Source of the DNA: Woeseiaceae bacterium
Lineage (GTDB): Bacteria > Pseudomonadota > Gammaproteobacteria > Steroidobacterales > Woeseiaceae
DNA: 52,519 nucleotides
Assembly (NCBI GenBank): GCA_021773135.1
Contig: JAJFKP010000014.1
Coordinates: 1 to 52,519 of the forward strand
Reading direction: 5' to 3'
The stretch's first letter is position 1. Every line of letters begins with the position of its first letter. The position numbers and the translations under genes are program-made. The notes under the pieces are model-generated. The model saw only the letters and a list, made by a program, of their open reading frames with translations. It was not told where the DNA came from and searched no databases. Below, in pieces: positions 10,732 through 52,519 of the stretch.

Positions 10732-12012
10732 ATGAGCTTTGACATAGCAGGCATACGGATTGGCGTTATTGGTCTTGGCTATGTTGGCCTGCCACTGGCC
10801 GTTGAGTTCGGCCGCAAGTATCCGACAGTCGGTTTCGATGTAAAAAAATCCCGCATAGAAGAGCTGTTGCGTGGCACTGATTCCACGCTCGAGGTGCCAG
10901 ACGACGAGCTCGGCGAGGCGACGCAGCTGACTTACAGCTCAAATGTCGACGATCTCGCCGCGTGTAATTTCTTCATCGTGACCGTGCCGACACCGATCGG
11001 CAGTGGCAATCGACCGTTGTTGACGCCTTTGCGGAACGCAAGTATGGCGATCAGCGGCGTCTTGAAAAAAGACGATATTGTCGTCTATGAGTCCACAGTT
11101 TACCCGGGCGCTACGGAAGAATTCTGCATTCCCTTTTTGGAAAAGGGGTCGGGTCTGACATTTAATCAGGACTTCTTCGTGGGCTACAGCCCCGAGCGCA
11201 TCAATCCCGGCGACCACGAACATCGCTTGCCGAGCATATTGAAGGTCACATCAGGGTCAACCGCGGAGGCAGCAGACTACATTGACAGCGTCTATGGTTC
11301 GATCATCACGGCCGGCACGCATAAGGCGTCGAGCATCAAGGTTGCGGAAGCAGCAAAGGTCATTGAGAACACGCAGCGCGACGTCAATATCGCGTTGATT
11401 AACGAACTCGCGATGATTTTCGAACGTGTCGGCATCGACACTGAAGAGGTCCTGGAGGCTGCAGGGACAAAGTGGAACTTTCTGCCGTTTCGACCGGGCC
11501 TCGTAGGCGGACATTGTATCGGAATCGACCCCTATTACCTGACCTACAAAGCACAGCAACTCGGTTATCATCCGCAGATGATTCTTGCCGGGCGACGAAT
11601 CAATGACAATATGTCGCTTTACGTATCGTCGCGGGTAATAAAAATAATGCTGTCCAAAGGCATACAGCCTAATGGTGCCCGCGTCCTGATTATGGGGCTT
11701 ACCTTTAAGGAAAACTGCCCCGACGTCCGCAACACGAAGGTCGTAGATATTGTTTCAGAGCTGTCGACCTATGGCGCTAACGTCGATGTTCACGATCCCT
11801 GGGTTGATCGCGATGAATGTTTACAGGAATACGAAATTGAACTCACTGAAGCGCCGCAGCCGGGTGCCTACGATGTTGTTATTCTCGCCGTCGCGCACCA
11901 GCAGTTCAAAGACCTGGGCGAGCAGGGTATCAAGGCGTTCGGCAAGCGTGATGCAGTATATTTCGATATCAAATATTTATTGCCGAAGGAGTCGGTTGAT
12001 GGTCGCCTGTAA
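10732..12012 (+). CDS. tviB: UDP-N-acetylhexosamine 6-dehydrogenase (TviB/WbpO type)
   Basis: A 426-residue NAD-dependent enzyme that oxidises C6 of a UDP-HexNAc to the uronic acid. The Rossmann motif [17 protein letters not shown] (11-27) is typical of TviB/WbpO rather than UDP-glucose dehydrogenase. The catalytic Cys262 lies in [15 protein letters not shown], with Lys209 in [13 protein letters not shown]. TviB makes UDP-GlcNAcA and WbpO makes UDP-GalNAcA; sequence alone does not separate them here. Because WbpB, WbpD and WbpE are encoded downstream, UDP-GlcNAcA is the product that fits the locus. It opens the polysaccharide operon, and the next gene follows after 18 bases. Confidence 0.88.
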
Positions 12013-24804: not shown

Positions 24805-25755
24805 ATGAAAGATTTTGTGTTGATTGGCGCCGCGGGATATATAGCTCCACGCCACATGAAAGCGATCAAGGATACGGATAACAATCTCGTCGCAGCAATG
24901 GATATCAGTGACTCGGTCGGCGTGATTGACAGCTATTTTCCGCAGGCCGATTTCTTCACGGAATTTGAGCGCTTCGATCGCCACGTCGATTTACTTCGGC
25001 GCCGCGGCGATGAAATCGATTTCGTGTCGATCTGTTCACCGAACTATTTGCATGATGCGCATATAAGATTTGCTTTACGTTCTCATGCGAATGCTATCTG
25101 CGAAAAACCGCTGGTGCTCAATCCATGGAACCTGGACGCGCTGCTCGACGTCGAAAAAGATACCGGCAAACACGTCAATACAATACTGCAGCTGCGTTTG
25201 CATCCCAGCATCATCGAGTTGAAGAAGAAAGTCGCCGCAATGCCGGATGGCTCACGTCAGGATGTGGATCTGACCTACATTACGTCGCGTGGACACTGGT
25301 ATGGAATTTCATGGAAAGGAGATGAAAAGAAGTCCGGTGGCATCGCTACCAATATCGGCGTACATTTTTTTGACATGCTGAGTTTTGTTTTCGGTTCGCT
25401 GCGTGAAAGCCAGTTGAATTACGTCTCGGACACAATGTCTGCAGGTTATCTCGAGTATGACAAAGCGCGGGTGCGATGGTTTCTGTCGGTCGATGCAGAG
25501 CATCTGCCGCAGTCGGCCGTAGCTGCGGGGCTGCGAACTTATCGCAGCATCACCGTCGGCGGCCAGGAAGTCGAGTTCTCAGGTGGCTTTACCGACCTGC
25601 ACACTGTGTCGTACCAACACATTCTTGATGGTCAGGGGTACGGCCTCGAGGATAGTCGTGTGGCGGTTGAGACGGTATCGAACCTGCGCAATATGCAGCC
25701 AAAGGGTCTGACTGGCGAATATCATCCGTTTTTAAAGCGGCTGCCCAAGCAATAA
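24805..25755 (+). CDS. wbpB: UDP-GlcNAc uronate 3-dehydrogenase WbpB/WlbA
   Basis: A 316-residue Gfo/Idh/MocA oxidoreductase. It starts [20 protein letters not shown], an almost diagnostic WbpB beginning. Other blocks are [23 protein letters not shown] (with catalytic Lys), [24 protein letters not shown] and [13 protein letters not shown]. The enzyme oxidises C3 of UDP-GlcNAcA, recycling NADH with 2-oxoglutarate in the characterised enzymes. WbpD and WbpE follow directly (gaps of 14 and 24 bases), giving the complete set from UDP-GlcNAcA to UDP-GlcNAc3NAcA. Confidence 0.93.
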
Positions 25756-25769
25756 ACGGATATCAAACC

Positions 25770-26369
25770 ATGCAAACCGGCTCGTCGAATTCACCAAATA
25801 TCAGCGTACACGACTCAGCAATTGTTGACGAAGGGGCGCAAATAGGGGACGGGTCGCGTATCTGGCACTGGACGCACGTTTGCAGCGGCGCGCGGGTTGG
25901 CCAGAATTGCTCGCTGGGTCAAAACGTGTTCGTGGCCAACGAGGTGGTCATTGGCAATAACGTCAAAATTCAAAATAACGTTTCGGTTTATGACAACGTA
26001 ACGCTTGAAGACGACGTATTTTGCGGGCCGAGCATGGTTTTTACCAATGTCTACAATCCGCGGTCAGCAATCAATCGAAAAGACGAATATCAAACTACGC
26101 TTGTATGCCGGGGAGCGACCATAGGCGCTAACGCGACTGTCGTTTGCGGCATCACGATCGGGGAGTATGCATTCATTGGCGCCGGGGCTGTGGTCAACCG
26201 TGATGTGCCTGACTTCGCCTTGTGCGTTGGTGTCCCCGCTCGCCAGATCGGTTGGATGAGTGAATTTGGCGAGCAGCTCGACCTGCCTGTCCAGGGTGAT
26301 GGTCAGGCCGAGTGCCCGAACTCAGGCATTCGGTATGTACTGCAGGCTGGTCAATTGTCCCGCGGGTAA
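25770..26369 (+). CDS. wbpD: UDP-GlcNAc3N uronate N-acetyltransferase WbpD/WlbB
   Basis: A 199-residue left-handed beta-helix acetyltransferase. Hexapeptide turns are visible from ~20 to ~165: [69 protein letters not shown]. It would acetylate the 3-amino group made by WbpE, using acetyl-CoA. Order here is wbpB-wbpD-wbpE, as in the Pseudomonas and Bordetella clusters. The C-terminal ~35 residues are outside the helix. Confidence 0.92.
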
Positions 26370-26393: not shown

Positions 26394-27515
26394 ATGGAAA
26401 TTATGCAATTTATTGATTTGAAACGGCAGTACGAGCACTTGCAACCCGCCATTGAGCGTCGCATTAACAATGTCCTCGAACACGGCAAATTCATTCTGGG
26501 CCCCGAGGTCCGCGAGTTAGAGACGGCCCTGGCTGAATTTTGCGGCGCGCGACATGCGATCGGTGTCGGCAATGGTACCGATGCGCTGCAGCTTGCGCTT
26601 ATGGCTGAGGGCGTCGGGCCGGGTGACGCCGTGTTTACCTCGGCATTTTCGTTTTTTGCCTCAGCGGAAGTCATCAGCCTGGTCGGAGCGACGCCGGTTT
26701 TCGTCGATATTGAAGAAGATACCTACAATATCTGCCCCAAGGCGCTGGGGGAGGCGATCGAGTCTGTTTCCCGGGCCGGTGAATTAAGGCCGCGCGGTAT
26801 TATCGCCGTCGACCTGTTCGGCTTGCCGGCAAATTACACCGCGATTGAAGCGGTCGCAGACCGGTTCGACCTGGTTCTTATCGAAGATGCTGCGCAGAGT
26901 TTCGGTGCACTTTGTGGCGATCGAAAAGCAGGGCAGTTTGGCAAGATTGCGGCGACGAGTTTTTTCCCGGCCAAACCGCTCGGGTGCTACGGTGACGGCG
27001 GCGCCGTTTTCACCGACGACGATGAGTTGGCCGAGCGAATCAGGTCACTGCGTGTTCACGGAAAGGGTGCCGACAAGTACGACAATGTTCGCATCGGCAC
27101 AAACAGTCGACTTGATACTCTGCAGGCGGCGATCTTGCTGGAAAAAATGGCAGTGTTCGCTGGTGAGCTTGACGCGCGCGAACGCTTGGCAAATCAGTAT
27201 AGCGCTCTTCTGGGTCAGAATTTTCACGTGCCTGTCGTTCCCGAGGGCTACCGATCTGCGTGGGCCCAATACACCGTGCGGCCGCGCCATGGCACGCGTC
27301 AATCATGGCAGGAGAAGCTGGCCAGTGACGGCATCCCTTCAGCGATCTATTACGGCAAGCCGCTGCATTTACAGCCGGCGTTTGCTGATCTGGGAGGCAA
27401 GACCGGCCAGTATCCGGTCGCTGAAAGCTGTTCAGAATCTGTTTTTAGTTTGCCAATGCATCCCTACATGGCGCCTGAAGAGTTTGATCGAGTTGTAAAA
27501 GCGTTGCAGGCATAG
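26394..27515 (+). CDS. wbpE: DegT-family 3-aminotransferase WbpE/WlbC
   Basis: A 373-residue PLP enzyme. It starts MEIMQFIDLKRQYEHLQ. PLP-binding blocks are GNGTDALQLAL, VLIEDAAQSFGA and FFPAKPLGCYGDGGAVFT, the last with the Schiff-base lysine. NSRLDTLQAAIL and SLPMHPYM are WbpE-typical. It transfers an amino group from glutamate to C3 of the keto-uronic acid made by WbpB. The alternative Met at 26403 is three residues later and equally possible. Confidence 0.92.
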   Translation: MEIMQFIDLKRQYEHLQPAIERRINNVLEHGKFILGPEVRELETALAEFCGARHAIGVGNGTDALQLALMAEGVGPGDAVFTSAFSFFASAEVISLVGATPVFVDIEEDTYNICPKALGEAIESVSRAGELRPRGIIAVDLFGLPANYTAIEAVADRFDLVLIEDAAQSFGALCGDRKAGQFGKIAATSFFPAKPLGCYGDGGAVFTDDDELAERIRSLRVHGKGADKYDNVRIGTNSRLDTLQAAILLEKMAVFAGELDARERLANQYSALLGQNFHVPVVPEGYRSAWAQYTVRPRHGTRQSWQEKLASDGIPSAIYYGKPLHLQPAFADLGGKTGQYPVAESCSESVFSLPMHPYMAPEEFDRVVKALQA

Positions 27516-27531: not shown

Positions 27532-28833
27532 ATGATGTCCAAGGTGTTGTCAATATTCCGGCGATCACCGTTTGCCAGGAATGTTCTGTTGATGTCATCT
27601 GCTACGAGCTTGGGCCAGCTGCTCGTCGTCGCCGCGGCACCAATCCTGACTCGCCTGTTTACTCCGGAGGATTTCGGTGTCCTCGGCGTGTATGCGTCTA
27701 TCCTCGGAATCTTGTCGGTGGTGGCGAGTTTGCGTTACGAGCAGGCTATTCCACTGCCAAAAAGCGACGCGGTTGCCGCAAACGTGCTCGTTGCGGCGCT
27801 CTTCTTTGCCGTGGTTATCAGCCTGGCAACGGGTATTGCGATCTACGTTTTCGAGACGAGCATTGCTGAACTCGTCGCATTGCCAGGCCATGAGTACACG
27901 CTATACCTGATTCCGGTCGGCGTGCTGCTCGTTGGCGCCTTTCAGTGTCTGAGCAATTGGGCAATTCGAAAAGAGGCTTTTTCGGCCATAGCCCATACAA
28001 CACTGCTGCAGGGTGGTGGCTCGGTTGTAACCCAATTGGCTGCGGGGTTCGTCGGTGCCGGTGCGACAGGACTGATCATTGGCCAGATCGTGGGGCAGGT
28101 AGCCGGGCTCGGCCGCCTGGCCAAGCTGCTTGTCAATGATTCCGGCAGGCCAATGCAATCTGTGTCGCCGCACAAACTTAAGCGTGTGATTGGTCGATAT
28201 CGGAGTTTTCCGCTGGTCTTCTCGTGGTCGGCCCTCCTGAACAGTGTTGGATTGATGGGTCCAACCATTCTTCTAGCAGCGTTTTATGGTGCCGCTGTCG
28301 TGGGCTGGTACGCCCTCGTGCAAAGAATACTCGGCGTACCGACGTCATTGCTCGGGCGCGCGGTTACCAATGCGTTTTTTAGTGAATCCGCCCGTCTCGC
28401 CCGTGAAGACCCGCCAGAACTTGGCCGCCTTTTCCTGCGCGTGCTCAAAAACCTGACTCTGATGGGTGTTGTTACTATTGTGCCCCTTGGGATTATTTCA
28501 CCCTGGCTCTTTCCGTTCGTATTCGGCGACAACTGGGTTACCGCCGGCCGCTACGCACTAATTCTGACACCAATGATCCTGCTGCAATTCTTGACATCGC
28601 CGTTCGGTGTCATACTCGCAGTCCTTGAGCGTAAAGATCTTGCGATGGTCAGAGAGACAGGCAGGGTATTGCTGGTGGGTGCTGCGTTGTTTTACGCAAA
28701 CGCGAGGAATTTCGAGCCCGAGCCGGCCGTCATGCTGTTGAGTTTTGCGGGCATTCTGAGCTACCTGCTGCACCTGTTCGTGTCGTGGCGAGCAATCCAG
28801 CAACGTATCGCTACGGCAGCATTGCGGCAGTGA
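27532..28833 (+). CDS. wzx: Wzx-type oligosaccharide flippase
   Basis: A 433-residue polytopic membrane protein of the MOP exporter superfamily with about twelve hydrophobic helices. It starts MMSKVLSIFRRSPFARNVLLMSSATSLGQ; the block APILTRLFTPEDFGVLGVYASI is a Wzx/RfbX hallmark. It should move the lipid-linked repeat unit across the inner membrane for Wzy. A TTG three codons earlier is possible. The last four bases overlap the GTG of the next gene (GTGA). Confidence 0.9.
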   Translation: MMSKVLSIFRRSPFARNVLLMSSATSLGQLLVVAAAPILTRLFTPEDFGVLGVYASILGILSVVASLRYEQAIPLPKSDAVAANVLVAALFFAVVISLATGIAIYVFETSIAELVALPGHEYTLYLIPVGVLLVGAFQCLSNWAIRKEAFSAIAHTTLLQGGGSVVTQLAAGFVGAGATGLIIGQIVGQVAGLGRLAKLLVNDSGRPMQSVSPHKLKRVIGRYRSFPLVFSWSALLNSVGLMGPTILLAAFYGAAVVGWYALVQRILGVPTSLLGRAVTNAFFSESARLAREDPPELGRLFLRVLKNLTLMGVVTIVPLGIISPWLFPFVFGDNWVTAGRYALILTPMILLQFLTSPFGVILAVLERKDLAMVRETGRVLLVGAALFYANARNFEPEPAVMLLSFAGILSYLLHLFVSWRAIQQRIATAALRQ

Positions 28834-30239
28834 ATATTATCGTCAGGCACCCCGCCAATCGAGTGGCCGAACGAAACTACATTTATGACGTCGTATTCGG
28901 CGAGTTCCTTGGGCTGTCGTATTCCATGATTCCGGAACAGCGAGCGGACGTAAGCATTACCTGTGGGGAAATGGCGGGCACGCTGACGATAGCCGACGTG
29001 CTGCTGCAAATTCCCCACGAAGACTGGTTGCGGCCAAATTCGTTGCCAGCGCTGCCGCTGTTGAATTTTGATCTACCCCGGGAGCTCATCGAAACCAACG
29101 AATCTGCATCACCTGCCGTGCCTGTGCTGTTTGGTAAGCCGCTCGACACCGGCAACCTCATGGACGTCCGACGTCACTCCATCGATGCCGGCATCGACTT
29201 TTTCGGTGCGGTTTTCTTCATGTTGACGCGCTACGAGGAGGCCTGTCCGACAGCACTGGATCAGCATGATCGATTTCCCTCCAGCGCATCTATGGCGGTT
29301 CAGGCGGATATCATCGAACGGCCAATTGTTAACGAATATGTTGAGATTATCTGGGCAAGCCTTAAATACCTGTTTCCGATGCTGGTACGCAAACCACGGA
29401 GCTACAGCGTCTCGCTGACGCATGACGTCGATCGGATCTATGACACCCGCGGCCAATCATGGCTGCAAGTCGCGAGGAATACGCTGGGGGATTTGACCAG
29501 GCGCAAAGATCTCGCGCTCGCGGCCACCCGGGTTCGCTCGAAATTTGCATCCAGCCGCAACGATTTTCAGCATGAGCCGTCCAACACATTCGAATTCATT
29601 ATGGATTGCAGTGAAGCCCACAACACGCACAGTTCGTTTTTCTTCATTGCGCATCGCGGAGCCGACGGCCTCGATGGTGATTACGATATCGATACGCCAT
29701 GGGTTCGTAGTTTGCTCCGCGACATAGGGGCGCGCGGACACCAATTGGGCCTGCACGGGAGTTACCACTCATACAGGGATGGGAAGCAGCTGGCCGCTGA
29801 GTTCTCGAAGCTAAAGAGGCTCGCGGGGGAAGAGGGTGTCAGCCAGGACAAATGGGGTGGCAGGCAGCACTATCTGCGCTGGGCACTGCCTGCGACCTGG
29901 CAGGGCTGGGCGGATGCCGGCCTGGACTTCGATAGTACGCTGTCCTTTCCGGAGGTCTGCGGGTTTCGAACTGGTACGTGTTGGGAGTACCCGGTTTTTA
30001 ACCTGAAATCCAGCACAGCGTTACCACTACGCGAGCGACCGCTTATCGTTATGGAGACGTCTTTGTTCAGCGAGTGCTATATGAATTTGACGCCTCGGGC
30101 TGCGTTCGAGGCAATCGAAAAACTGTCATCAGTTTGCCGTGCGTTTGATGGTCAATTTACGCTACTTTGGCATAACGACAACCTGGCACAGGCAAACTGG
30201 AGGCAGCTGTACCGAGAGGTACTGGAGGCGATAACCTAG
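28830..30239 (+). CDS. Polysaccharide deacetylase (NodB-like) with an extra N-terminal domain
   Basis: A 469-residue protein starting MNIIVRHPANRVAERNY at a GTG that overlaps the wzx stop. Residues ~1-180 form an N-terminal domain of a type often attached to bacterial deacetylases of surface-sugar loci. Residues ~190-465 are the NodB-type catalytic part: the metal/base motif THDVD at ~196-200, and GLHGSYHSYRDG near ~307 for the second histidine motif. No signal peptide is visible, so it probably acts on a cytoplasmic or lipid-linked sugar. Substrate is unknown; an N-acetyl or O-acetyl group on the repeat unit is likely. Confidence 0.82.
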   Translation: MNIIVRHPANRVAERNYIYDVVFGEFLGLSYSMIPEQRADVSITCGEMAGTLTIADVLLQIPHEDWLRPNSLPALPLLNFDLPRELIETNESASPAVPVLFGKPLDTGNLMDVRRHSIDAGIDFFGAVFFMLTRYEEACPTALDQHDRFPSSASMAVQADIIERPIVNEYVEIIWASLKYLFPMLVRKPRSYSVSLTHDVDRIYDTRGQSWLQVARNTLGDLTRRKDLALAATRVRSKFASSRNDFQHEPSNTFEFIMDCSEAHNTHSSFFFIAHRGADGLDGDYDIDTPWVRSLLRDIGARGHQLGLHGSYHSYRDGKQLAAEFSKLKRLAGEEGVSQDKWGGRQHYLRWALPATWQGWADAGLDFDSTLSFPEVCGFRTGTCWEYPVFNLKSSTALPLRERPLIVMETSLFSECYMNLTPRAAFEAIEKLSSVCRAFDGQFTLLWHNDNLAQANWRQLYREVLEAIT

Positions 30240-31053: not shown

Positions 31054-31150
31054 GGCTTCGTTAAAGTTCTCTGGCAGGTAAAAAAACGGCAACGCAGAAT
31101 AACCTTATCCATGGTTCTGGCGCCAGTGGTATGGGTTCCGCTGCACTCTC

Positions 31151-31159: not shown

Positions 31160-31201
31160 CGCTCGATAGCGGAATCCATCGCTGGGAGATTGTACAAACA
31201 C

Positions 31202-32317
31202 ATGGGGCAGGCCGACTACAGGATTTGCGTGCGGTGCATCATGGATAGCACGGATCACGACATTGCTTTTGACGATGAGGGCGTCTGTAATCATTGTCGC
31301 GATTATGAGGCCATTGAACGGGCGCAGCCGCCGTTGGCGGAAAGAGAGCGGCAGCTTGAGTCCCTGGTTGCCAAAATCAGCCAGGCTGGCAAACGTCAGG
31401 ACTATGACTGCATTGTAGGTATGAGCGGTGGTGTCGACAGTTCCTACCTGGCATACCTGGCGAAATCTCGCGGGTTACGGCCATTGGCCGTACACGTCGA
31501 TGCCGGCTGGAATTCGGAGCTGGCCGTCAAGAATATCGAGAGCCTGGTCAAAGCGCTCGATATCGACCTCGTAACATTCGTGGTTGACTGGAAGGAAATG
31601 CAGGACCTGCAGGTAGCGTTTCTACGATCGGGTGTCGCCAATCAGGATATTCCACAGGACCACGCGTTTATCGCGGGCGTGTTCAGAATTGCGAGCAAAC
31701 ACCGAATCAAATATGTTTTGAGCGGCGGAAATAACTCGACGGAAGGTATCTTGCCTGAATCCTGGGGCTACAGTGCGCTTGATCTGAGACACATCAAGGG
31801 AATTCACAAACGTTTTGGTCGGGGGCGGTTGTCGCAATATCCGACCATCAATTTCTTTCAGTATTACATCTACTATCCCATGCTTCGCGGCATTCGCACG
31901 GTCCGCCTGCTAAACTATATTGACTACAACAAGAAAGAGGCGATGGACAAGCTTTCGACTGATTTCGGCTGGCGCTACTACGGCGGCAAGCACTTCGAAT
32001 CCCGCTATACCAAGTTCTTTCAGTCCTACTATCTCCCGCAGCGATTCGGTTACGACAAGCGACGTGCACATTTGTCGAGTCTTGTCGTTTCCGGCCAGCT
32101 GGAGCGATCCGCCGCGCTCGAAGAATTTGCAGAGCCAGGCTATTCCCCGGAGTCACTGCGGGAAGAGCGAGCATTTATTATCAAGAAACTGGGTATATCA
32201 GAAGATGAATTCGACAAAATCCAGCACTCGCCCAAGCGAACCTACAAGGATTATCCCTCGAGTGAGGCATTGTTCGGACTCAAAGACCGCGCAAAAAGTA
32301 TTCTTGCGAGAATCTAG
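31202..32317 (+). CDS. wbpG: N-acetyl-sugar amidotransferase (WbpG/PseA family), copy 1
   Basis: A 371-residue PP-loop ATPase. In the P. aeruginosa O5 system WbpG turns the C3 N-acetyl group of a UDP-diacetamido-uronate into an acetamidino group, using ammonia from HisH2/HisF2. Here an N-terminal cysteine site is complete (Cys9, Cys12, Cys29 and Cys32, in CVRC and CNHC). The ATP loop is MSGGVDSSYLAY. Further blocks: AVHVDAGWNSELAVKNIE, SGGNNSTEGILPESWGY and KHFESRYTKFFQSYYLP. A TTG at 31190 is an alternative start. It precedes a GT4 gene and, after that, hisH-hisF. A paralogue lies at 35154. Confidence 0.9.
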   Translation: MGQADYRICVRCIMDSTDHDIAFDDEGVCNHCRDYEAIERAQPPLAERERQLESLVAKISQAGKRQDYDCIVGMSGGVDSSYLAYLAKSRGLRPLAVHVDAGWNSELAVKNIESLVKALDIDLVTFVVDWKEMQDLQVAFLRSGVANQDIPQDHAFIAGVFRIASKHRIKYVLSGGNNSTEGILPESWGYSALDLRHIKGIHKRFGRGRLSQYPTINFFQYYIYYPMLRGIRTVRLLNYIDYNKKEAMDKLSTDFGWRYYGGKHFESRYTKFFQSYYLPQRFGYDKRRAHLSSLVVSGQLERSAALEEFAEPGYSPESLREERAFIIKKLGISEDEFDKIQHSPKRTYKDYPSSEALFGLKDRAKSILARI

Positions 32318-32376
32318 GCAACAGAGTTGCCAGGCTTCCTGATGCATTTGACGCGGCGCTAGGACGTCTTCTCGCA

Positions 32377-33522
32377 ATGTACCTCCATATCATCGTTACC
32401 CCGTTTGAGCATGAAAGCCGGGTCCTCAAGCAATGTCAGGTGGCCGCTGAATTCGACGGCAACAAACCGCGCATGGTCATAGCGCTCTGGGAACCAGGGC
32501 TGGAGCAGCAAGAAGTACTTGATGATGGTTTGAGCGTGTGGCGCGTGTCCCTCAAAAGCCGTTCCTGGCCAAAGAACCTGGTGGTGCAGGTGATCAAGTA
32601 CTTCGAATTCGCGTACCGCATTCTCGCGCGTATGAGATCGAGTGATATAACGGTGATTACCGCACACAGTGTTGCGGCGTTGCCCGTGGGTGTCGCGCTC
32701 AAATGGCTGACAAACACACCGTTGATCTACGACGCTCACGAACTGGAATCTGAAGCAAATGGCCTCAGCCCGGTGCGCAGGGTGCTTACGCGCAGAATGG
32801 AGGGCCTCTGGATCAGGGCGGTCGATCGCGTTGTCACCGTTTGCGACAGTATCGCAGACTGGTATGTTGCGACGTTTCCGATTGAACGACCCCTCGTCGT
32901 ACGCAATGTGCCCATTCGAGCGGGTACTCCGGAGGCCAAATCAACCGTGCTCCGAGATGAGCATGGTGTTCCAGCGAACGAATTGCTGTTCCTGTACCAG
33001 GGTTCGCTGGCACCCGGACGAGGCATCGGTTCTCTCCTTACCGTTTTTGCCAGGCCCGAAATGCGCAGTCATTTCGTTGTGATGGGCTATGGGGAGCTGG
33101 AGGCACAGGTAAGAGAGGCGGCGGCGGAGTCCCCCAATATTCATTTTCAACCTGCCGTACCGCCGGAAAAAGTGTTGTTTTATACATCGAGCGCTGATAT
33201 CGGTTTGTGCCTTATCGAGAATACCTGCCTCAGCTACTATTACTCATTGCCCAACAAGCTTTTCGAATACCTGTTGAGCGGACTACCCGTGCTGGTCAAC
33301 GATATGCCGGAACAGCGCCGTATCGTTGAGGAATTCAATTGCGGATGGGTGGTACCCGAGGCGCAGGCTGAACAGGAGGCGCTGTTATCATCGATAGAAA
33401 AAGATCAGTTTGAGGTGCGCAGGGCAGGTGCGATAAGGGCCGGAGAAAGCTTCGAATGGGCGGCCGAGGCGACAAAGCTTCAGGCGCTGTATGCGACCCT
33501 CGCATCCGTCAACCGGAATTGA
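32377..33522 (+). CDS. Glycosyltransferase family 4, paralogue A
   Basis: A 381-residue GT-B enzyme. It has the N-terminal fold starting MYLHIIVTPFEHESRVLKQ, the central YDAHELESE acceptor-side motif, the nucleotide-binding half with FLYQGSLAPGRGIGSLL, and the GT4 signature SLPNKLFEYLLSGLPVLV. Its closest visible relative is the GT4 at 36333, which follows the second amidotransferase: the two share YDAHELE, YQG-x5-GRGI and a CLSY-x3-SLPNK-x-FEY block. Cytoplasmic, acting on the lipid-linked repeat unit; donor unknown, possibly the amidino sugar. Confidence 0.88.
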   Translation: MYLHIIVTPFEHESRVLKQCQVAAEFDGNKPRMVIALWEPGLEQQEVLDDGLSVWRVSLKSRSWPKNLVVQVIKYFEFAYRILARMRSSDITVITAHSVAALPVGVALKWLTNTPLIYDAHELESEANGLSPVRRVLTRRMEGLWIRAVDRVVTVCDSIADWYVATFPIERPLVVRNVPIRAGTPEAKSTVLRDEHGVPANELLFLYQGSLAPGRGIGSLLTVFARPEMRSHFVVMGYGELEAQVREAAAESPNIHFQPAVPPEKVLFYTSSADIGLCLIENTCLSYYYSLPNKLFEYLLSGLPVLVNDMPEQRRIVEEFNCGWVVPEAQAEQEALLSSIEKDQFEVRRAGAIRAGESFEWAAEATKLQALYATLASVNRN

Positions 33523-33554
33523 AACAGCCGGAATTTTACGGTTGAATCACCGCA

Positions 33555-33583
33555 TTGAACGTGCGATTGATTGTCGCTATGAT
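33555..33583 (+). promoter_or_regulatory. Sigma-70 promoter upstream of hisH
   Basis: TTGAAC (33555-33560), an exact 17-base spacer, then TATGAT (33578-33583). This is the best-formed promoter seen in the polysaccharide locus. It lies in the only gap over 100 bases between plus-strand genes from 31.2 to 44.0 kb and about 50 bases before the hisH ATG, so the hisH-hisF unit can be expressed on its own. Confidence 0.65.
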
Positions 33584-33634
33584 CCCTGCGCGATTCCGAC
33601 TCACTCACCACAACAGTAACCACGAAAGGTTGTC

Positions 33635-34288
33635 ATGTCCGTAGCCAATGCAGAATTGCGCCCCGATCGGAGAGTGGTAATCGCGGATTGTCAGCTCGGC
33701 AATATGGGTTCTGTCGCAAATATGGTGAAGCATGTCGGCGGGACTCCGATCATCAGCCAGGATGCTGACGTCATCGCTGAATCCACGCACCTGATTCTTC
33801 CCGGTGTCGGCAACTTCCAATATGGAATGAAGCAGCTGCACAAGCTGGGATTCATCGATGTACTCAACGCAGCGCGGGACAAAGGGACGCACATCTTGGG
33901 CATCTGCCTGGGGATGGCGCTGATGACGAAGTGGAGCGACGAGGGCAACTGTGACGGTCTGGGCTGGTTCGACTTCAGAACGGTAAGGTTCCCAAGTCAG
34001 CTCGACTCCGGCGAGCGCCTCCTGGTGCCGCATATGGGTTGGAATCAGATCGATCCAGCGCCAGCAGCAACGGAATTTGTTGCGGTTCCATCGCCGTCGC
34101 GATTCTACTTCGTCCACTCATATTTCGTAGACGGCGCCGATAAAGTCGACTGTCGTGCGACGACCGTTTATGGCGATACAAAGTTCGCCAGCGCAATAGG
34201 CCGTGACAATGTCATCGGCGTGCAGTTTCACCCGGAAAAAAGTCACAAATTCGGAATGGCATTCATGCGCGACTTCCTGGCGCGTTAG
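33635..34288 (+). CDS. hisH: HisH-type glutaminase for sugar amidination (HisH2)
   Basis: A 217-residue class I glutamine amidotransferase that releases ammonia from glutamine. The catalytic triad is complete: Cys91 in GICLGM, His199 and Glu201 in FHPEKSH. It is of the HisH family, but it lies between two sugar amidotransferases with no other histidine genes nearby. The likely role is that of P. aeruginosa HisH2, feeding ammonia via HisF to WbpG. The GAAAGG ribosome site is close to the ATG, and hisF follows after six bases. Confidence 0.9.
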   Translation: MSVANAELRPDRRVVIADCQLGNMGSVANMVKHVGGTPIISQDADVIAESTHLILPGVGNFQYGMKQLHKLGFIDVLNAARDKGTHILGICLGMALMTKWSDEGNCDGLGWFDFRTVRFPSQLDSGERLLVPHMGWNQIDPAPAATEFVAVPSPSRFYFVHSYFVDGADKVDCRATTVYGDTKFASAIGRDNVIGVQFHPEKSHKFGMAFMRDFLAR

Positions 34289-34294
34289 TCGAGT

Positions 34295-35083
34295 ATGTTT
34301 TCGTCACGTGTGATTCCATCCCTGACGCTGATCGACGACGGGCTATACAGAACAAAAAAATTCAAGAAGCCGTCCTACGTCGGTGATCCTCTCAACGCCG
34401 TCAGGATTTTCAATGAGAAGGAGGTGGACGAACTTTTCGTCCTGGACATCACTCCGTCGCATACCTGGGATGAGGGCCGCCTGCAGTTGCTGACCGAGAT
34501 GGCCGAAGAAGCTTTCATGCCCATGGGACTGGGCGGCAATATTTCGAGCGTGACGCATGTTGAGCGTGCGTTCGAGATGGGCTATGACAAAGTTGTTATC
34601 AATTCAGCTGCAATCAGCAATACGCCTCTCATAAAGGAGCTGGCGGGTCGCTTTGGCGGGCAGAGTATCGTGGTTTCAATTGATGTCGGCAAGAAGATGT
34701 TTGGCGGTGCATCAGTCTACGCAGACCTGGGCCGCAAGACGGCCGATATCGATCCGGTTGAGCATGCACAGAAATGCGAGCAGGCAGGCGCTGGAGAAAT
34801 TGTAATTCGTTCAATTGCTCATGACGGTCTGATGGATGGGTTTGATCTTGACCTGATTGCCCGTGTGTCGTCAGCCGTGTCAGTACCGGTGGTGGCCGCA
34901 GGGGGTGCCGGCTCGCTCGAAGACTTAAGCCTTGCGATGGAAGCAGGCGCTCACGCGGTGACCGCCGGCAGTATGTTTGTCTACCACGGGCCGCACCGCG
35001 CCGTGCTTATCAACTATCCTGATACAGAGGAATTAAACAGGATCTTTAGCCGTTCCAAAGCGACTGTCAAGGCCGCGCCCTGA
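34295..35083 (+). CDS. hisF: HisF-like ammonia-channel subunit for sugar amidination (HisF2)
   Basis: A 262-residue TIM-barrel protein of the HisF family. In histidine-pathway HisF the two catalytic residues are Asp11 and Asp130. Here residue 11 is Thr (IPSLTLIDDG), while Asp130 is kept (VVSIDVGKK). Another block typical of the sugar-cluster form is KKPSYVGDPLNAVRIFNEKEVDEL, which suggests a lost cyclase role but a kept ammonia tunnel and HisH contact. It follows hisH after six bases and precedes the second amidotransferase. Family assignment is firm; loss of histidine activity is inferred. Confidence 0.9.
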   Translation: MFSSRVIPSLTLIDDGLYRTKKFKKPSYVGDPLNAVRIFNEKEVDELFVLDITPSHTWDEGRLQLLTEMAEEAFMPMGLGGNISSVTHVERAFEMGYDKVVINSAAISNTPLIKELAGRFGGQSIVVSIDVGKKMFGGASVYADLGRKTADIDPVEHAQKCEQAGAGEIVIRSIAHDGLMDGFDLDLIARVSSAVSVPVVAAGGAGSLEDLSLAMEAGAHAVTAGSMFVYHGPHRAVLINYPDTEELNRIFSRSKATVKAAP

Positions 35084-35153
35084 TTTCTGATGGCACTGAT
35101 GGCGATGAAATCGATCAGTTTCGGCCGTGCAGCTCTCTAGTATCCCCGCCAAT

Positions 35154-36290
35154 ATGACGAATCAGCCTGAAAACTACAGAGTCTGTTCCCGGACAGTAAT
35201 GGATACGTCCGATACGGCAATTGTTTTTGACCAGGATGGTGTGTCGAATCATTGGTGGGGCTGCAAACAGCGCCTGGAAACGGAAGTCATTCCCGGTGCC
35301 GCCGGCCTTGCAAAGGCCAGCGAGATCGCTCAACAGATTCGGGATGAAAACCGTAACAGAGAGTACGATTGCCTGATTGGCGTCAGTGGCGGAATCGACA
35401 GCAGCTATGTTGCCTACTGGGTCCGTAAACTGGGTCTGCGGGCGTTGGCGGTACATGTCGACAATGGCTGGAATTCCGAACTCGCCGTAGCGAATATCAA
35501 GAAAATATTAACCACGCTGGAAATCGACCTGCACACGGTTGTGCTTGACTGGCCGGAGTTCAGGGATCTGCAGAGGAGTTTCTTTTATTCCTCCGTACCC
35601 AACTGCGAAATTCCTACAGACCACGCGATCGTGTCATCGCTTTTTCATCTGGCGCGGAAAATGAATATCCGTTACATAATCAGCGGCAGCAATGTGACAT
35701 CCGAAGGCGTGTCGCAGGAAAATGTCGGGCACGACGCTAAAGACTGGACGCATATTGCCGCGATTCAAAAACGTTTTGGAACACGCAAGCTCAAGAGCTT
35801 TCCGAGGCTGACGGAACTCGGCCTCGCGCGCTCAATCGTAGTTGATCGCGTACGGTTCATCCCGATTCTGAATTATCTCGATTACGATCGTCACGCAGCG
35901 ATCGAGACACTGGCCAGCGAACTGGGGTGGCGCGACTACGGTCGAAAACACGGGGAATCTACATTCACGCGATTTTTCCAGGAGTACTACCTGCCGGAGA
36001 AGTTTGGCTTTGACAAGCGACGCATGCACTTTTCTTCACTGATCTGCGCCGGTCAGATGACCAGGGAAGAAGCGCTGCAAAAGCTTGCAGAACCGATGTA
36101 CGAGCCGGACGAACTGGCTGCCGATATTGAATTTTTCCGCAAGAAGCTACAATTTTCGGAACAAGACCTCGATGGCATCATGTGCGCCAGACCCGAGCTG
36201 CATACGAAATACAAAACGGGCCTGATTTTCAAGGGCGCGCAGTCACCGCTGTTTTCCTGGATGCGCAACCTGGCGACGGGGAGAAAATGA
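35154..36290 (+). CDS. N-acetyl-sugar amidotransferase (WbpG family), copy 2 with degenerate cysteine site
   Basis: A 378-residue paralogue of the gene at 31202. The ATP loop is intact (GVSGGIDSSYVAY), as are VHVDNGWNSELAVANIKK, SGSNVTSEGVSQENVGH and KHGESTFTRFFQEYYLPEKFGFDKRR. The N-terminal cysteine site is not: where copy 1 has CVRC and CNHC, this one has CSRT and SNHW. Only Cys11 remains of the four, with a new Cys37 nearby. A GTG at 35127 is an alternative start. It may act on a second sugar, or only pair with copy 1. It directly follows hisF and precedes a second GT4. Confidence 0.87.
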   Translation: MTNQPENYRVCSRTVMDTSDTAIVFDQDGVSNHWWGCKQRLETEVIPGAAGLAKASEIAQQIRDENRNREYDCLIGVSGGIDSSYVAYWVRKLGLRALAVHVDNGWNSELAVANIKKILTTLEIDLHTVVLDWPEFRDLQRSFFYSSVPNCEIPTDHAIVSSLFHLARKMNIRYIISGSNVTSEGVSQENVGHDAKDWTHIAAIQKRFGTRKLKSFPRLTELGLARSIVVDRVRFIPILNYLDYDRHAAIETLASELGWRDYGRKHGESTFTRFFQEYYLPEKFGFDKRRMHFSSLICAGQMTREEALQKLAEPMYEPDELAADIEFFRKKLQFSEQDLDGIMCARPELHTKYKTGLIFKGAQSPLFSWMRNLATGRK

Positions 36291-36332
36291 CTTGGCAATG
36301 CGGCGGGTTTGGATGACCGGGCGGCACGGCGC

Positions 36333-37466
36333 ATGACACGAAGCAACGTGCACATTTATCCCTCGGTGTTCAAATACGAATCGAGAATGCTGAAGGAGAC
36401 GCAGAGTATTCTTGACGCCAACCTGTGCGACAAAGTGATCATTCTCGCTAGCTACGCAGACGAGTTGCCGGAAGTTGAAGCAATTGACGGCAATCGCACC
36501 GTCGTGCGACTACGGCTTTTTTTCTCACGATTTCCCAAGAACCTGGTGACAGAGTCTTTCAAATTTACGGAACTGATGATCAGGTCGCTCTGGGCGTTGC
36601 GGCGGGTACGGGTGACGCACGTCAATGCGCATTCCCTTTCGGTGCTGCCGACGGCCGTGTTGTTCAGACTCTTCAAGCGAGCTCGTGTAATCTACGATGC
36701 GCATGAGCTTGAGACAGAGCGCTGGGGACTAACCGGTGCCCGCAAGCGAGTTTCGAAACTCATGGAGCGGACGCTGATGCCCTTCGTGTCGACAATTGTC
36801 GTGGTCGGCCCGTCAATCGCCAACTGGTACAGGCAGCACTACCCGGGCAAGCCAGTTTTCGTGGTCAGAAACATCCCTCACATTGCATCTCAGCGTAGCC
36901 AGGATCCAACGGTCTTAAGAAAGCACATTGGCGTATCGGATAGCGTCATTCTTCTGATCTACCAGGGATTGTTCGCAGAGGGTCGCGGCATAGCGATGAT
37001 GCTGGCGGCGCTCCGCAATACGGAAAATGCCAACGTGCATTGTGTTTTCATGGGCAATGGACCGCTGGAACCCGCCATAGCACAGGAAGCCGAACAAGCG
37101 CGCAACGTCCACCTGATCCCCCCGGTGGCGCCAGACGAGGTGCTCGCGTATTCCTGCGGCGCGGACGTGGGGCTGTGCATGATCGAAGATTGTTGCCTGA
37201 GCTATCACCTGAGCCTGCCAAACAAGTTTTTTGAATACATCTCTGCCGGTTTGCCCCTGATTATTTCGCCGTGCCCGGATCAAGAGGAAATAGTCGCTGC
37301 CTGCGGCAATGGCTGGATCGTCAGTGAGTCGGAAAGTGGGCTGACGGAATTTCTCGACCAACTCACGCGGGAAGAATTGCAAGGCAAAAAGATTGCGGCG
37401 AGTAAATCGAGAAGCCGGTTCGACTGGGACAAAGACGCCAGGAAGTACGTAAAGATATTCCAGTGA
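36333..37466 (+). CDS. Glycosyltransferase family 4, paralogue B
   Basis: A 377-residue GT-B enzyme, sister of the GT4 at 32377: VHIYPSVFKYESRMLKE at the N-terminus, YDAHELETERWGL, LLIYQGLFAEGRGIAMML and SLPNKFFEYISAGLPLII. The frame continues upstream to a TTG at 36309, but the ATG at 36333 matches the paralogue's start. It sits after the second amidotransferase just as paralogue A sits after the first, so the pair has been duplicated as a block. Its last four bases overlap the next gene (GTGA). Confidence 0.88.
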   Translation: MTRSNVHIYPSVFKYESRMLKETQSILDANLCDKVIILASYADELPEVEAIDGNRTVVRLRLFFSRFPKNLVTESFKFTELMIRSLWALRRVRVTHVNAHSLSVLPTAVLFRLFKRARVIYDAHELETERWGLTGARKRVSKLMERTLMPFVSTIVVVGPSIANWYRQHYPGKPVFVVRNIPHIASQRSQDPTVLRKHIGVSDSVILLIYQGLFAEGRGIAMMLAALRNTENANVHCVFMGNGPLEPAIAQEAEQARNVHLIPPVAPDEVLAYSCGADVGLCMIEDCCLSYHLSLPNKFFEYISAGLPLIISPCPDQEEIVAACGNGWIVSESESGLTEFLDQLTREELQGKKIAASKSRSRFDWDKDARKYVKIFQ

Positions 37467-38725
37467 GCAAACCATTAAATGTATGGATTGTCACCGTCGG
37501 TGAGCCACTACCGCTCGACGGCCCCAACGTGCGGCTGTATCGCAGCGGCATCCTGAGTTACCTGATGGCCGAGCAGGGTCACAGTGTCACCTGGTGGTCG
37601 TCAACCTTTGATCATGTTGCCAAGGTGCAGCGCGAAAGTCAGGAAAGAGACATTGTATTACAGCACAACCTGACATTAAGCCTGATGCGCGGACTTGGCT
37701 ACCGTCGCAACGTCTCTTTCCGCCGGCTGCTGGATCACGTATTCCTTGCTCGCGAGTTCAGAAAGCTCGCACCGACAAGACGCAAACCTGACGTCATACT
37801 CGTTTCTTATCCCACTATCGAACTTTGCTATGAAGCCATTCGTTTTGGCAAAAAATACGGCGTCCCGGTTGCAGTCGACGTCCGGGATTTGTGGCCGGAT
37901 ATCTTCGAACAGGCATTTCCGCGCGGCATGAGGAAAGCGGTTCACACACTGTTTTTTCCTCTTAACCGGAAGGCGCGACGAGTGTTTCAATCTGCAAACG
38001 CGATTACCGGGATTACCGACGAGATTGTCGACTGGGCAATTCGCAAGGGCGGTTCTGCGCGTCGAGCGCTGGACCGCGCATTTCCTTTCGCCTATGACGC
38101 ATCGGAGTCAGTGGATGAAGACAGGGCGGCAGCTGTCGATTTCTGGCAGCAACATGGCATCAATGAAAACGGGTGGAATATCTGTTTCTTTGGCACGCTT
38201 GGTCGGCAATTCGACCTGGGGACCGTCATCGGTGCGGCGCGCAGACTGTCGCAAACGCATCCGGAAGTCAGGTTCGTGATCTGCGGTGAGGGAGACCTGA
38301 AAAAACAGTTCGAACAACTGGCAGGTGACGTTCCATCGGTGGTGTTTCCCGGTTGGGTAAATCGCGTCCAGATCAGGGTCCTGATGGAAATATCACGCCT
38401 TGGGCTTGCGCCGTATTACCCATCCGCAGATTTCATGATGAGTCTCCCCAACAAGCCGATCGAATATATGTCTGCCGGGCTTCCGGTGCTGTCGACTATC
38501 GGCGGTGTCCTCGGAGATTTGCTTAGGCAAAAAGGTGCCGGAGTCGTATGTGAGGGCGCCAATGCAGAGTCCTTGTCGGCAAATATAGTCGAACTCATCA
38601 ATAGTCCGGACAAAATTGCACAAATGCGCGCGGCTTCCCTCGAGTTGTTTCAGGAGCGCTTCGACGCACAGCATGTGTATGCCGAATTCAGCCAGTATCT
38701 GCAGGAATTAGCTCAATCAGCGTGA
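37463..38725 (+). CDS. Glycosyltransferase family 4 (WbuB-like)
   Basis: A 420-residue GT-B enzyme, GTG start overlapping the previous stop. N-terminal half: VWIVTVGEPLPLDGPNVRLYRSG and DVRDLWPDIFEQAFP, the latter typical of WbuB-like FucNAc/QuiNAc-transferring GT4s. C-terminal half: CFFGTLGRQFDLGTVIGAA, VFPGWVNRVQIRVLM and SLPNKPIEYMSAGLPVL. It is not a close copy of paralogues A and B. A deoxy-amino-sugar donor would fit the WbpM-type dehydratase encoded at 44503, but this is inference. Confidence 0.87.
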   Translation: MSKPLNVWIVTVGEPLPLDGPNVRLYRSGILSYLMAEQGHSVTWWSSTFDHVAKVQRESQERDIVLQHNLTLSLMRGLGYRRNVSFRRLLDHVFLAREFRKLAPTRRKPDVILVSYPTIELCYEAIRFGKKYGVPVAVDVRDLWPDIFEQAFPRGMRKAVHTLFFPLNRKARRVFQSANAITGITDEIVDWAIRKGGSARRALDRAFPFAYDASESVDEDRAAAVDFWQQHGINENGWNICFFGTLGRQFDLGTVIGAARRLSQTHPEVRFVICGEGDLKKQFEQLAGDVPSVVFPGWVNRVQIRVLMEISRLGLAPYYPSADFMMSLPNKPIEYMSAGLPVLSTIGGVLGDLLRQKGAGVVCEGANAESLSANIVELINSPDKIAQMRAASLELFQERFDAQHVYAEFSQYLQELAQSA

Positions 38726-40745: not shown

Positions 40746-40779
40746 TGGATCGCTGCCTACCACTGTTTTCGGATGAGCA

Positions 40780-41544: not shown

Positions 41545-41549
41545 AACCT

Positions 41550-51449: not shown

Positions 51450-52519
51450 TTAGGCAGCTGCGCCTGAACGTCGCTTCAAACACTCAACCGCACGTTCCGC
51501 GGCCTTACCGTCCCAAAGTGGAGGGCGCTGTCCTTTGCGCCAGTCGCCCGCCAGCACGCGAGTCAGATGCTCATCCAGGTTGTCCGCTCGGATCAGCTTA
51601 TTGGTACCGATGGTCACGGTGACCGGCCGTTCTGTATTCTCGCGCAAGGTCAGGCATGGAATCCCAAGGTAGGTTGTTTCCTCCTGGAGCCCGCCAGAAT
51701 CCGTTATGACTACTCGAGCACCGGTGACAATATTCATGAAGCTCACGTAGGGCAATGGTTCCAGCAGATGGATATTCTCATCCTGATTGATCCTGTCTCT
51801 CAATCCAAACCTTTCAAGGCCGTTTATCGTGCGCGGGTGCGCAACAAACACAACCGGTAATTCAGAAGAGGCCTTAACCAGCGCATCGATGATGGGCTCC
51901 AGGGTTTCAAGCGCATCGACATTCGAAGGACGATGTAGCGTGACGAGCGCGTATTCGCCGGCGCTCAAGCCGAGGTCGGCCTGCGCGCTGGAAGCCTCGA
52001 TCTTGTCACGCAGCATTTCAAATGAGTCGATCATGATATTGCCGATGAGATCGATCTTGTCACTGTTTACGCCTTCCGCCTTCAGGTTTTCGTCGGCGTC
52101 CGGTGATGGCGTCCACAACACGTCGGCAATGGCGTCCGTGACCAATCGATTGATCTCTTCCGGCATGCGCCGGTCGCCACTTCGTAAGCCAGCCTCGAGG
52201 TGCACCACGGGAATCCACAGCTTGGTGCCAACCTGCGCGCAGGCGGCGGTGGAATTTACATCGCCGACAACAATAATCCAGTCTGGCGGATCTTCCAGGC
52301 ACACTTTTTCGTAAGCGATCATGACGCCACCCGTTTGCTCCGCGTGTGAGCCGCTGCCAACGCCAAGGTGGTGATCGGGCGCCGGGAGCTGCAGATCCTC
52401 GAAAAACACGTCAGACATGTTGACGTCGTAGTGCTGACCGGTATGTACCAGGACAGGTTCGGCCCAGCTCGTTCGCTTGAGGGCATGGTAAAGCGGTGCG
52501 ACCTTCATGAAATTGGGTC
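51450..52519 (-). CDS. wecB: UDP-N-acetylglucosamine 2-epimerase (non-hydrolysing), 5' end outside window
   Basis: At least 356 residues are in the window; the reading frame continues to the edge with PNF-MKVAPLYHAL, matching the family start GTRPNFMKVAPL, so the gene begins a few residues to the right. Motifs: VHTGQHYD, GDVNSTAACA, HLEAGLRS, MPEEINRLVTD, TLHRPSNVD, HPRT and DSGGLQEE. It makes UDP-ManNAc. The P-N-F start is WecB-like; WbpI-type enzymes (UDP-GlcNAc3NAcA 2-epimerase) usually have P-Q-F-I-K, so this is less likely to be WbpI. Confidence 0.92.
   Translation of the reverse strand, partial: PNFMKVAPLYHALKRTSWAEPVLVHTGQHYDVNMSDVFFEDLQLPAPDHHLGVGSGSHAEQTGGVMIAYEKVCLEDPPDWIIVVGDVNSTAACAQVGTKLWIPVVHLEAGLRSGDRRMPEEINRLVTDAIADVLWTPSPDADENLKAEGVNSDKIDLIGNIMIDSFEMLRDKIEASSAQADLGLSAGEYALVTLHRPSNVDALETLEPIIDALVKASSELPVVFVAHPRTINGLERFGLRDRINQDENIHLLEPLPYVSFMNIVTGARVVITDSGGLQEETTYLGIPCLTLRENTERPVTVTIGTNKLIRADNLDEHLTRVLAGDWRKGQRPPLWDGKAAERAVECLKRRSGAAA

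Follow-up and report, generated by a model that had tools for sequence, protein, structure and literature searches.

Can a single HisH-HisF pair supply ammonia to two sugar amidotransferases at once? The question is raised by a six-gene block in a 52,519-nucleotide stretch from a Woeseiaceae bacterium (contig JAJFKP010000014.1 of assembly GCA_021773135.1; the whole stretch is hereinafter designated the window), in which two homologues of N-acetyl sugar amidotransferases (WbpG-A and WbpG-B), each followed directly by a family 4 glycosyltransferase (GT4-A and GT4-B), flank one HisH and one HisF gene. The single-enzyme system is already known from Pseudomonas aeruginosa O5 and Escherichia coli O145; our search of the open-licence literature found no report of two amidotransferases per HisH-HisF. 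To our knowledge, neither the ammonia route from HisH to sugar amidotransferases nor the service of several of them by one glutaminase is settled for this family. On balance, we favor the reading that the one HisH-HisF pair would supply two amidotransferases of anciently separate subfamilies, giving two amidino residues per repeating unit of the polymer. A two-enzyme set that recurs together with one GT4 family would be a natural system for studying channelling, substrate choice and the role of the zinc site, and would aid the sequence-based prediction of polymers that carry two amidino residues.

A six-gene block with two amidotransferases and one HisH-HisF pair

The block (31190-37466) reads WbpG-A, GT4-A, HisH, HisF, WbpG-B and GT4-B, all on the + strand, with intergenic gaps of 59, 112, 6, 43 and 18 bases (Table 1). 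A sequence-only reading had given the same six genes in the same order; it placed the start at 31202, which is an in-frame ATG, but a longer frame begins with TTG at 31190. WbpG-A and WbpG-B are 43% identical over 352 aligned positions (E 2e-108) and GT4-A and GT4-B 35% identical over 371 positions (E 1e-82); judged by this likeness, which is far beyond chance, the members of each pair are paralogues. Among the shared motifs that the reading had listed, GWNSELAV and YDAHELE occur in both copies, and the spacer between CLSY and SLPNK has two residues (YY, HL), not three.

By score, PP-loop (SGGVDS) and intact zinc tetracysteine (CVRC...GVCNHC), WbpG-A is a predicted N-acetyl sugar amidotransferase. 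WbpG-B has an intact PP-loop (SGGIDS), and its zinc motif reads CSRT...GVSNHW, with three of the four cysteines gone and only the first one kept. The window's HisF scores below the cut-offs for WbuZ (TIGR03572, 255 versus 299.7 bits) and for the histidine-pathway HisF (TIGR00735, 182 versus 294.6 bits). It carries threonine at position 11, where aspartate, which we take to be the catalytic residue in histidine synthesis, is found in none of the 114 HisFs (the window's counted) that have a residue there. By score and by residue alike, it is not an imidazole glycerol phosphate synthase HisF of the histidine pathway.

No third WbpG-like amidotransferase was found in the genome, whose WbpG relatives are WbpG-A and WbpG-B only. 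One HisH/HisF pair lies beside the two enzymes, and the genome has no other WbpG-linked HisH/HisF; its remaining HisH and HisF relatives are neighboring genes on contig C8 (a single further HisH with HisF-like genes beside it), apparently the histidine (his) operon. G+C content shows no clear step at the block, promoter- and terminator-like sites in the window are about as frequent as in shuffled sequence, and a phage search gave no match; nine plasmid records found in a plasmid search carry relatives.

WbpG-A and WbpG-B belong to two old subfamilies

The amidotransferase trees drew on 159 rows, representing 158 genes (one gene is split) at 138 loci. Named genomes contributed 79 loci, from the best 80 of at least 587 confirmed matches in a scan that favors WbpG-B relatives (WbpG-B stood first in the query), and 57 of the 123 fetched survey loci were used; the remaining two are E. 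coli O145 and the window. The surveys covered 246 genomes of the window's order, 370 of its class, 387 of the class of the Mesorhizobium locus L073 and 296 of the phylum of the Flavobacterium locus L065, in partly overlapping sets. The amidotransferases of L093 and L202 are identical, and these two loci may represent a single genome entered twice; two E-type enzymes lying 13 kb apart in one genome (G1043) were entered as two single loci (L198, L199). Zinc-motif columns were excluded from the trees, and a more careful tree was built on 64 rows (95 of the 159 dropped), holding both enzymes of 17 of the 20 loci with two amidotransferases (without L062, L084 and L165) and 30 single ones.

A split supported at 98 in the 159-row tree and at 100/99 in the 64-row tree divides the rows into a Q side of 56 rows that includes WbpG-A and an E side of 103 rows that includes WbpG-B; in a first, smaller tree the supported Q group was narrower, with L043 and L057 outside it. 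Within the Q side, 21 rows group with WbuX of E. coli O145 (hereinafter designated the FucNAm-type subgroup). Ten columns contrast the non-fucose Q rows with the E rows (commonest residue above 60% in each), most strongly within one loop, NQD[IV]PQDHAF in Q versus xE[IV]P[TS]DHAI in E.

A tree with WbpG-A and WbpG-B as sisters is rejected by the approximately unbiased (AU) test (p 0.0037), and one with GT4-A and GT4-B as sisters is rejected more weakly (p 0.021). Because the Q/E split is old and both sister pairs are rejected, the two halves of the block did not arise in this lineage by duplication of a single unit. The "duplicated block" of the sequence-only reading thus holds as far as paralogy goes, at 43% and 35% identity, and fails as a joint duplication of amidotransferase and GT4; the alignments and trees of both WbpGs and both GT4s that it had proposed as a check were run, and they place the two WbpGs in separate subfamilies, the outcome it had named as refuting.

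G048, a genome of the same order, offers a comparison for how the block may have arisen. WbpG-A is nearest to its amidotransferase (L022; 99/86 in the 64-row tree), the only one in a collinear cluster, which is 59% identical to WbpG-A and 45% to WbpG-B. The G048 genes run deacetylase, HisH, HisF, WbpG, a GT4-A relative, another glycosyltransferase (28% identical to GT4-A), GT4-C, methyltransferase, DegT, TylF, transketolase halves and sugar transferase, and apart from that other glycosyltransferase they are 40-72% identical to the window's (GT4-C is 40% identical to G048 1102610-1103878). GT4-A is 43% identical to the GT4 that follows the Q-type enzyme of L022 and groups with it at 88/91; the GT4 tree does not place GT4-B. 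HisH-HisF precedes WbpG in G048 and follows GT4-A in the window, and the other glycosyltransferase stands where the window has WbpG-B and GT4-B. The difference between the two clusters therefore points to a WbpG-B + GT4-B cassette gained or exchanged as a unit.

Two-enzyme loci recur with the same glycosyltransferase family

A pair of such amidotransferases occurs at 20 of the 138 loci, mixed Q+E in 12, E+E in seven and Q+Q in one. The mixed loci are the window, L030, L043, L051, L064, L067, L073, L075, L099, L165, L191 and L194; the eight named carriers are Rhizobium sp., Mesorhizobium sp., Brevundimonas denitrificans with L067, Roseicyclus marinus with L099, Caulobacteraceae and Cyclobacteriaceae metagenome-assembled genomes, a Verrucomicrobia bacterium and an Olavius symbiont. 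Of the 57 survey loci of this subfamily, 5 are dual, and an E partner accompanies 3 of the survey's 12 Q-type loci; among the FucNAm-type loci, survey and named together, none of 21 is dual. One HisH and one HisF lie in the stretch examined at 15 of the 20 dual and 9 of the 12 mixed loci. GT4s of the family of GT4-A and GT4-B (membership at 110 bits or more) are present in 13 of 20 dual loci, 11 of the 12 mixed ones among them, versus 9 of 118 single loci (Fisher p 4e-8); the p-values given for this family are rough, because kinship among the organisms breaks independence and a single genome may underlie both L093 and L202.

Like the window, the 11 other mixed loci combine one Q and one E enzyme, with one HisH and one HisF in 8 of 11 and the same GT4 family in 10 of 11. 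They differ in gene order, and only L030 has the succession amidotransferase-GT4-hisH-hisF-amidotransferase seen in the window. In the HisF tree, the closest neighbor of the window's HisF is the one of L022 (Q type), while the HisF of L043 lies nearest to Q-type loci and that of L030 to E-type loci; since distances are large and support is poor, this is no more than a hint that the later arrival can be of either type.

In L051, L067 and L073, the GT4s that follow E-type enzymes group with that of L164 (100/100) and those that follow Q-type enzymes with that of L059 (82/78); because the GT4s group by partner type, each amidotransferase-GT4 pair seems to travel together in these loci. Across 22 pairs (L093 and L202 being identical), the rank correlation between amidotransferase and adjacent GT4 is 0.37, a value that 5 of 5000 shuffles attained. 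Among the 32 possible within-locus swaps, the top four all keep L051, L067 and L073 as observed and differ for the window and L191.

A more distant subfamily offers a parallel. Its enzymes differ from the window's in scoring below 100 bits against the WbpG profile, and 67 survey loci hold such a TIGR03573 amidotransferase, 15 of them two or three. Of these 15 loci, ten have one HisH and one HisF (L012, L014, L128, L135, L142, L144, L152, L162, L186 and L196), three have two pairs (L132, L156, L172), L118 has HisH only and L115 has neither; several, such as L014, L128, L142, L144, L162 and L196, resemble the window in joining two TIGR03573 proteins to one HisH and one HisF. With 10 of the 67 loci showing it, the arrangement of two amidotransferases around one HisH-HisF pair extends beyond this locus and subfamily, and a claim of rarity was dropped after the recount. 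Five distant-subfamily frames of 685-805 amino acids (Table 1) fuse a HisF part to an amidotransferase part, with HisH in the same stretch, which suggests that HisF and the amidotransferase touch directly and that HisF hands the ammonia over to it.

Some dual loci have features of their own. L191 and L194, both from the Bacteroidota survey, hold an asparagine-synthase-type protein (GATase and Asn_synthase domains; L191:7407-9245, L194:9273-11105) within the mixed set. We considered that this AsnB-type protein replaces HisH there, an idea weakened by a further HisH-HisF-amidotransferase set (L192, L195) 12-14 kb away in these genomes. L062 and L084 encode, opposite a second amidotransferase, an amidotransferase with a long N-terminal extension (L062:6297-8510 and L084:6317-8527, both on the - strand; frames of 737 and 736 amino acids).

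Loss of the zinc site is not a mark of the second copy

In PMC10607449, the tetracysteine motif is called conserved and characteristic of the family; by that definition, WbpG-B is on its sequence a zinc-less homologue and not a canonical member. Beyond that paper, a search of the open-licence literature showed no zinc-less family members. Among our rows they are common: all four cysteines are present in 129 of 157 rows and two or three are gone in 28, WbpG-B among them, a count that leaves out L080 (only the last cysteine gone) and one half of the split L165 gene (without that region). The state of the site changes at least 12 times on the tree. Zinc loss affects 8 of 41 rows at dual versus 20 of 118 at single loci (p 0.81), and being equally common in single loci it was rejected as a mark of the second copy.

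Nor is decay a likely explanation, since 20 of the 28 zinc-less rows are the sole amidotransferase of their locus and 19 of these 20 have HisH and HisF in the stretch. In 34 columns, conservation reaches 95% of rows or more (one half of the split L165 gene excluded), and neither WbpG-A nor WbpG-B deviates at any of them. The WbpG-B model has a predicted local distance difference test (pLDDT) score of 93.1 and is confident except for the first 12 residues. Its best match in the PDB is 8WEX, LpNASAT of Legionella pneumophila, which it resembles in fold (template modeling (TM) score 0.59-0.65) and PP-loop; unlike WbpG-B, to which it is only 15-17% identical, LpNASAT has the tetracysteine zinc site according to PMC10607449. 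Sole zinc-less enzymes, the 34 kept columns and the confident model together indicate that the zinc loss of WbpG-B is no sign of decay.

The first motif cysteine is kept in all 158 rows reaching that position, zinc-less ones included, which hints at a role apart from zinc. At the mixed locus L165, the E-type amidotransferase is split into two frames (L165:7704-8874, - strand) beside an intact Q-type enzyme.

Predicted sugar pathway and substrates

The window holds WbpA-, WbpB-, WbpD-, WbpE- and WbpI-type enzymes (Table 1), that is, all five of the O5-type acetamidino-mannuronate pathway, so that a 2,3-diacetamido-2,3-dideoxy-hexuronic acid can probably be made. This is the kind of sugar that WbpG of P. 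aeruginosa O5 modifies, according to PMC10607449. The window's relatives in G048 are 72% (WbpD), 46% (WbpE) and only 25% (WbpB) identical.

Locus context was counted in stretches of up to about 10 kb on each side, which miss distant pathway genes. FnlA and FnlC accompany 14 of the 21 FucNAm-type loci (13 of 20 without O145, the source of the query) and WbpD none of them; according to PMC10607449, WbuX of E. coli O145 makes L-FucNAm. The 21 non-fucose Q single loci hold WbpD in 10, WbpE in nine and FnlA in none, and the 76 E single loci WbpD in nine, WbpE in 10 and FnlA in four. From the Q-type context and the enzymes of the window, WbpG-A most likely acts on diacetamido-uronate.

The wbp cluster of P. 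aeruginosa O5 is like the window in its WbpB, WbpE and 2-epimerase matches and in having HisH, a HisF2-type HisF, a WbpG-type enzyme and a GT4; unlike O5, which has one WbpG per HisH2/HisF2, the window has a pair of amidotransferases from different subfamilies and a pair of GT4s from one family. WbuX-HisH-HisF of E. coli O145 likewise sets an amidotransferase beside HisH and an AglZ/HisF2-type HisF, and WbuX falls on the same side of the split as WbpG-A. It differs in belonging to a separate subgroup often found beside FnlA/FnlC and in being the one such enzyme of its O-antigen cluster.

Discussion

From these comparisons we infer the ammonia sharing, both substrates and the glycosyltransferase assignments of the following scheme. 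HisH would split glutamine, and HisF would pass the ammonia on to both WbpG-A and WbpG-B. WbpG-A would turn one N-acetyl group of the 2,3-diacetamido-2,3-dideoxy-hexuronic acid made by the WbpA/B/E/D(/I)-type enzymes into an acetamidino group, as WbpG does in O5, and GT4-A would transfer the product. WbpG-B would amidinate a second N-acetyl sugar or another stereoisomer, for example the 2-epimer made by WbpI, and GT4-B would transfer it. The locus would have arisen by adding or swapping the WbpG-B + GT4-B cassette beside a set of HisHF, WbpG-A and GT4-A, not by block duplication. That one HisH-HisF serves two amidotransferases, each with its own GT4, had been proposed from the sequence alone, and the proposal gains indirect support from recurrence in 12 mixed loci (11 with the same GT4 family), the lack of another WbpG-linked HisH/HisF in the genome, the conserved columns kept in both enzymes and the comparison with the G048 locus.

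Several observations weigh against this scheme. Mixed loci are not clearly commoner than same-type pairs (12 versus 8 of 20). In the stretches examined, L051, L062 and L084 have neither HisH nor HisF, and L191 and L194 have HisF and no HisH. Among 14 genomes with loci of interest that were searched whole, five (those of L030, L034, L075, L085 and L107) hold further amidotransferases elsewhere, and a second HisH/HisF was sought genome-wide in the window's genome only. In the survey alone, the GT4 family occurs in 2 of 5 dual versus 4 of 52 single loci (p 0.08). The observed pairing of amidotransferases and GT4s ranks 3 of 32, and the window's own WbpG-GT4 pairing, likewise that of L191, is indistinguishable from the swapped one. 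The position of WbpG-B within the E side shifts between trees, and the genes around E-type enzymes are mixed and give no clear answer as to their substrate. The HisF fusions of the distant subfamily would equally fit one HisF per amidotransferase.

Both amidotransferases might instead act on one sugar, at the 2-N-acetyl and the 3-N-acetyl group of the 2,3-diacetamido-uronic acid. Diacetamido-uronate is the only N-acetylated sugar whose pathway we recognize as complete in the window, and one loop distinguishes the Q from the E subfamily; set against this, the presence of two related GT4s of a single family, one immediately behind each amidotransferase, fits two sugars better, G048 with its one Q-type enzyme also has the WbpD and WbpE relatives, and a "diacetamidino" sugar did not turn up in our search of the open-licence literature, so that we regard this alternative as rather improbable. 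We give a similarly low probability to WbpG-B drawing on the same ammonia source for another amidation, such as conversion of a uronic acid carboxylate into a uronamide, or for other acceptor chemistry. Such a role would suit the mixed context of E-type loci and the asparagine-synthase-type protein inside the gene sets of L191 and L194, and a polysaccharide of Vibrio vulnificus has one acetamidino sugar and one uronamide (PMC3210612); three amidotransferases of that species, two with consecutive accessions, are named in PMC10607449. The 34 kept columns of WbpG-B and its score above the curated cut-off for N-acetyl sugar amidotransferases speak against such a switch. Uronamides, moreover, are usually assigned to asparagine-synthase-type enzymes.

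If WbpG-B were catalytically inactive, decaying or a regulator, leaving one amidino sugar only, this would account for the loss of three of four zinc cysteines from a motif described as characteristic in PMC10607449. Its open frame, PP-loop and conserved columns, a model confident beyond the first 12 residues, the zinc-less enzymes that serve alone in 20 of 118 single loci, nearly all with HisH and HisF, and the lack of an excess in dual loci make this quite unlikely. If one amidotransferase + GT4 block had been copied in tandem in this lineage and the copies had then diverged, this would explain why both pairs are paralogous and in the same gene order; given the two AU rejections and the nearer relatives that each WbpG has in other bacteria, such a joint duplication is hardly credible. 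Sharing of one HisH-HisF pair by enzymes making two amidino residues remains the reading we prefer. A bolder extension of it, which we consider unlikely, makes HisH-HisF an interchangeable ammonia hub around which amidotransferase + GT4 cassettes of the two subfamilies are swapped, feeding two enzymes at once, with the zinc-less E-type enzyme acting on a substrate or by a chemistry not yet described; if this were true, bacteria would add another amidated sugar to a polymer by acquiring a cassette of two genes.

Other features of the window

Gene content suggests that the window is a surface polysaccharide cluster of the Wzx/Wzy type; it also encodes an initiating sugar transferase.

Table 1 Positions of the features discussed, in window coordinates unless a locus is named
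Feature	Position	Strand	Assignment and basis
WbpG-A	31190..32317	+	N-acetyl sugar amidotransferase, Q subfamily; TIGR03573 300 bits (cut-off 203.2)
GT4-A	32377..33522	+	GT4 glycosyltransferase; Pfam Glycos_transf_1 / Glyco_trans_4_4
HisH	33635..34288	+	Glutaminase subunit, presumed shared ammonia source; TIGR01855 185 bits (cut-off 105.4)
HisF	34295..35083	+	HisF2/AglZ type, presumed ammonia channel; NF038364 315.7 bits (cut-off 310)
WbpG-B	35127..36290	+	N-acetyl sugar amidotransferase homologue, E subfamily; TIGR03573 275 bits (cut-off 203.2)
GT4-B	36309..37466	+	GT4 glycosyltransferase, same family as GT4-A
GT4-C	37463..38725	+	Third, more distant GT4; overlaps GT4-B by 4 bases
WbpA/TviB type	10732..12012	+	UDP-GlcNAc 6-dehydrogenase; NF011729 608.8 bits (cut-off 592)
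WbpB	24805..25755	+	3-oxidation of UDP-GlcNAcA; WbpB 3oa2, E 2.8e-114
WbpD/WlbB type	25770..26369	+	N-acetyltransferase; 3mqg (lipopolysaccharide biosynthesis acetyltransferase), E 4.5e-94
WbpE type	26394..27515	+	3-aminotransferase; 4qgr, E 1.2e-119; WbpE 3nu7, E 1.8e-98
WbpI type	51450..52508	-	2-epimerase; 8sxv (UDP-2,3-diacetamido-glucuronate 2-epimerase), E 2.7e-82; frame may run past the window edge
VimE-like	28785..30239	+	Deacetylase relative; NF053580 163 bits, below the VimE cut-off of 440
DegT aminotransferase (second in the window), TylF-type methyltransferase, split transketolase halves	39630-43293		Block common to G048, 56-72% identity
HisF-amidotransferase fusions	L113:988-3054, L124:7892-9949, L146:604-3021, L152:13407-15644, L171:8583-10646	- (L171)	Distant subfamily

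Two tandem paralogues of the capsule-assembly protein Wzi, 38% identical, lie at 14684-17658; the called second frame runs into the first, and its true start is probably further downstream. Within the cluster, one gene encoded on the other strand (30277-31092, - strand) has weak, sub-cut-off matches to sulfotransferase families, and no counterpart of it was seen in the collinear G048 stretch.

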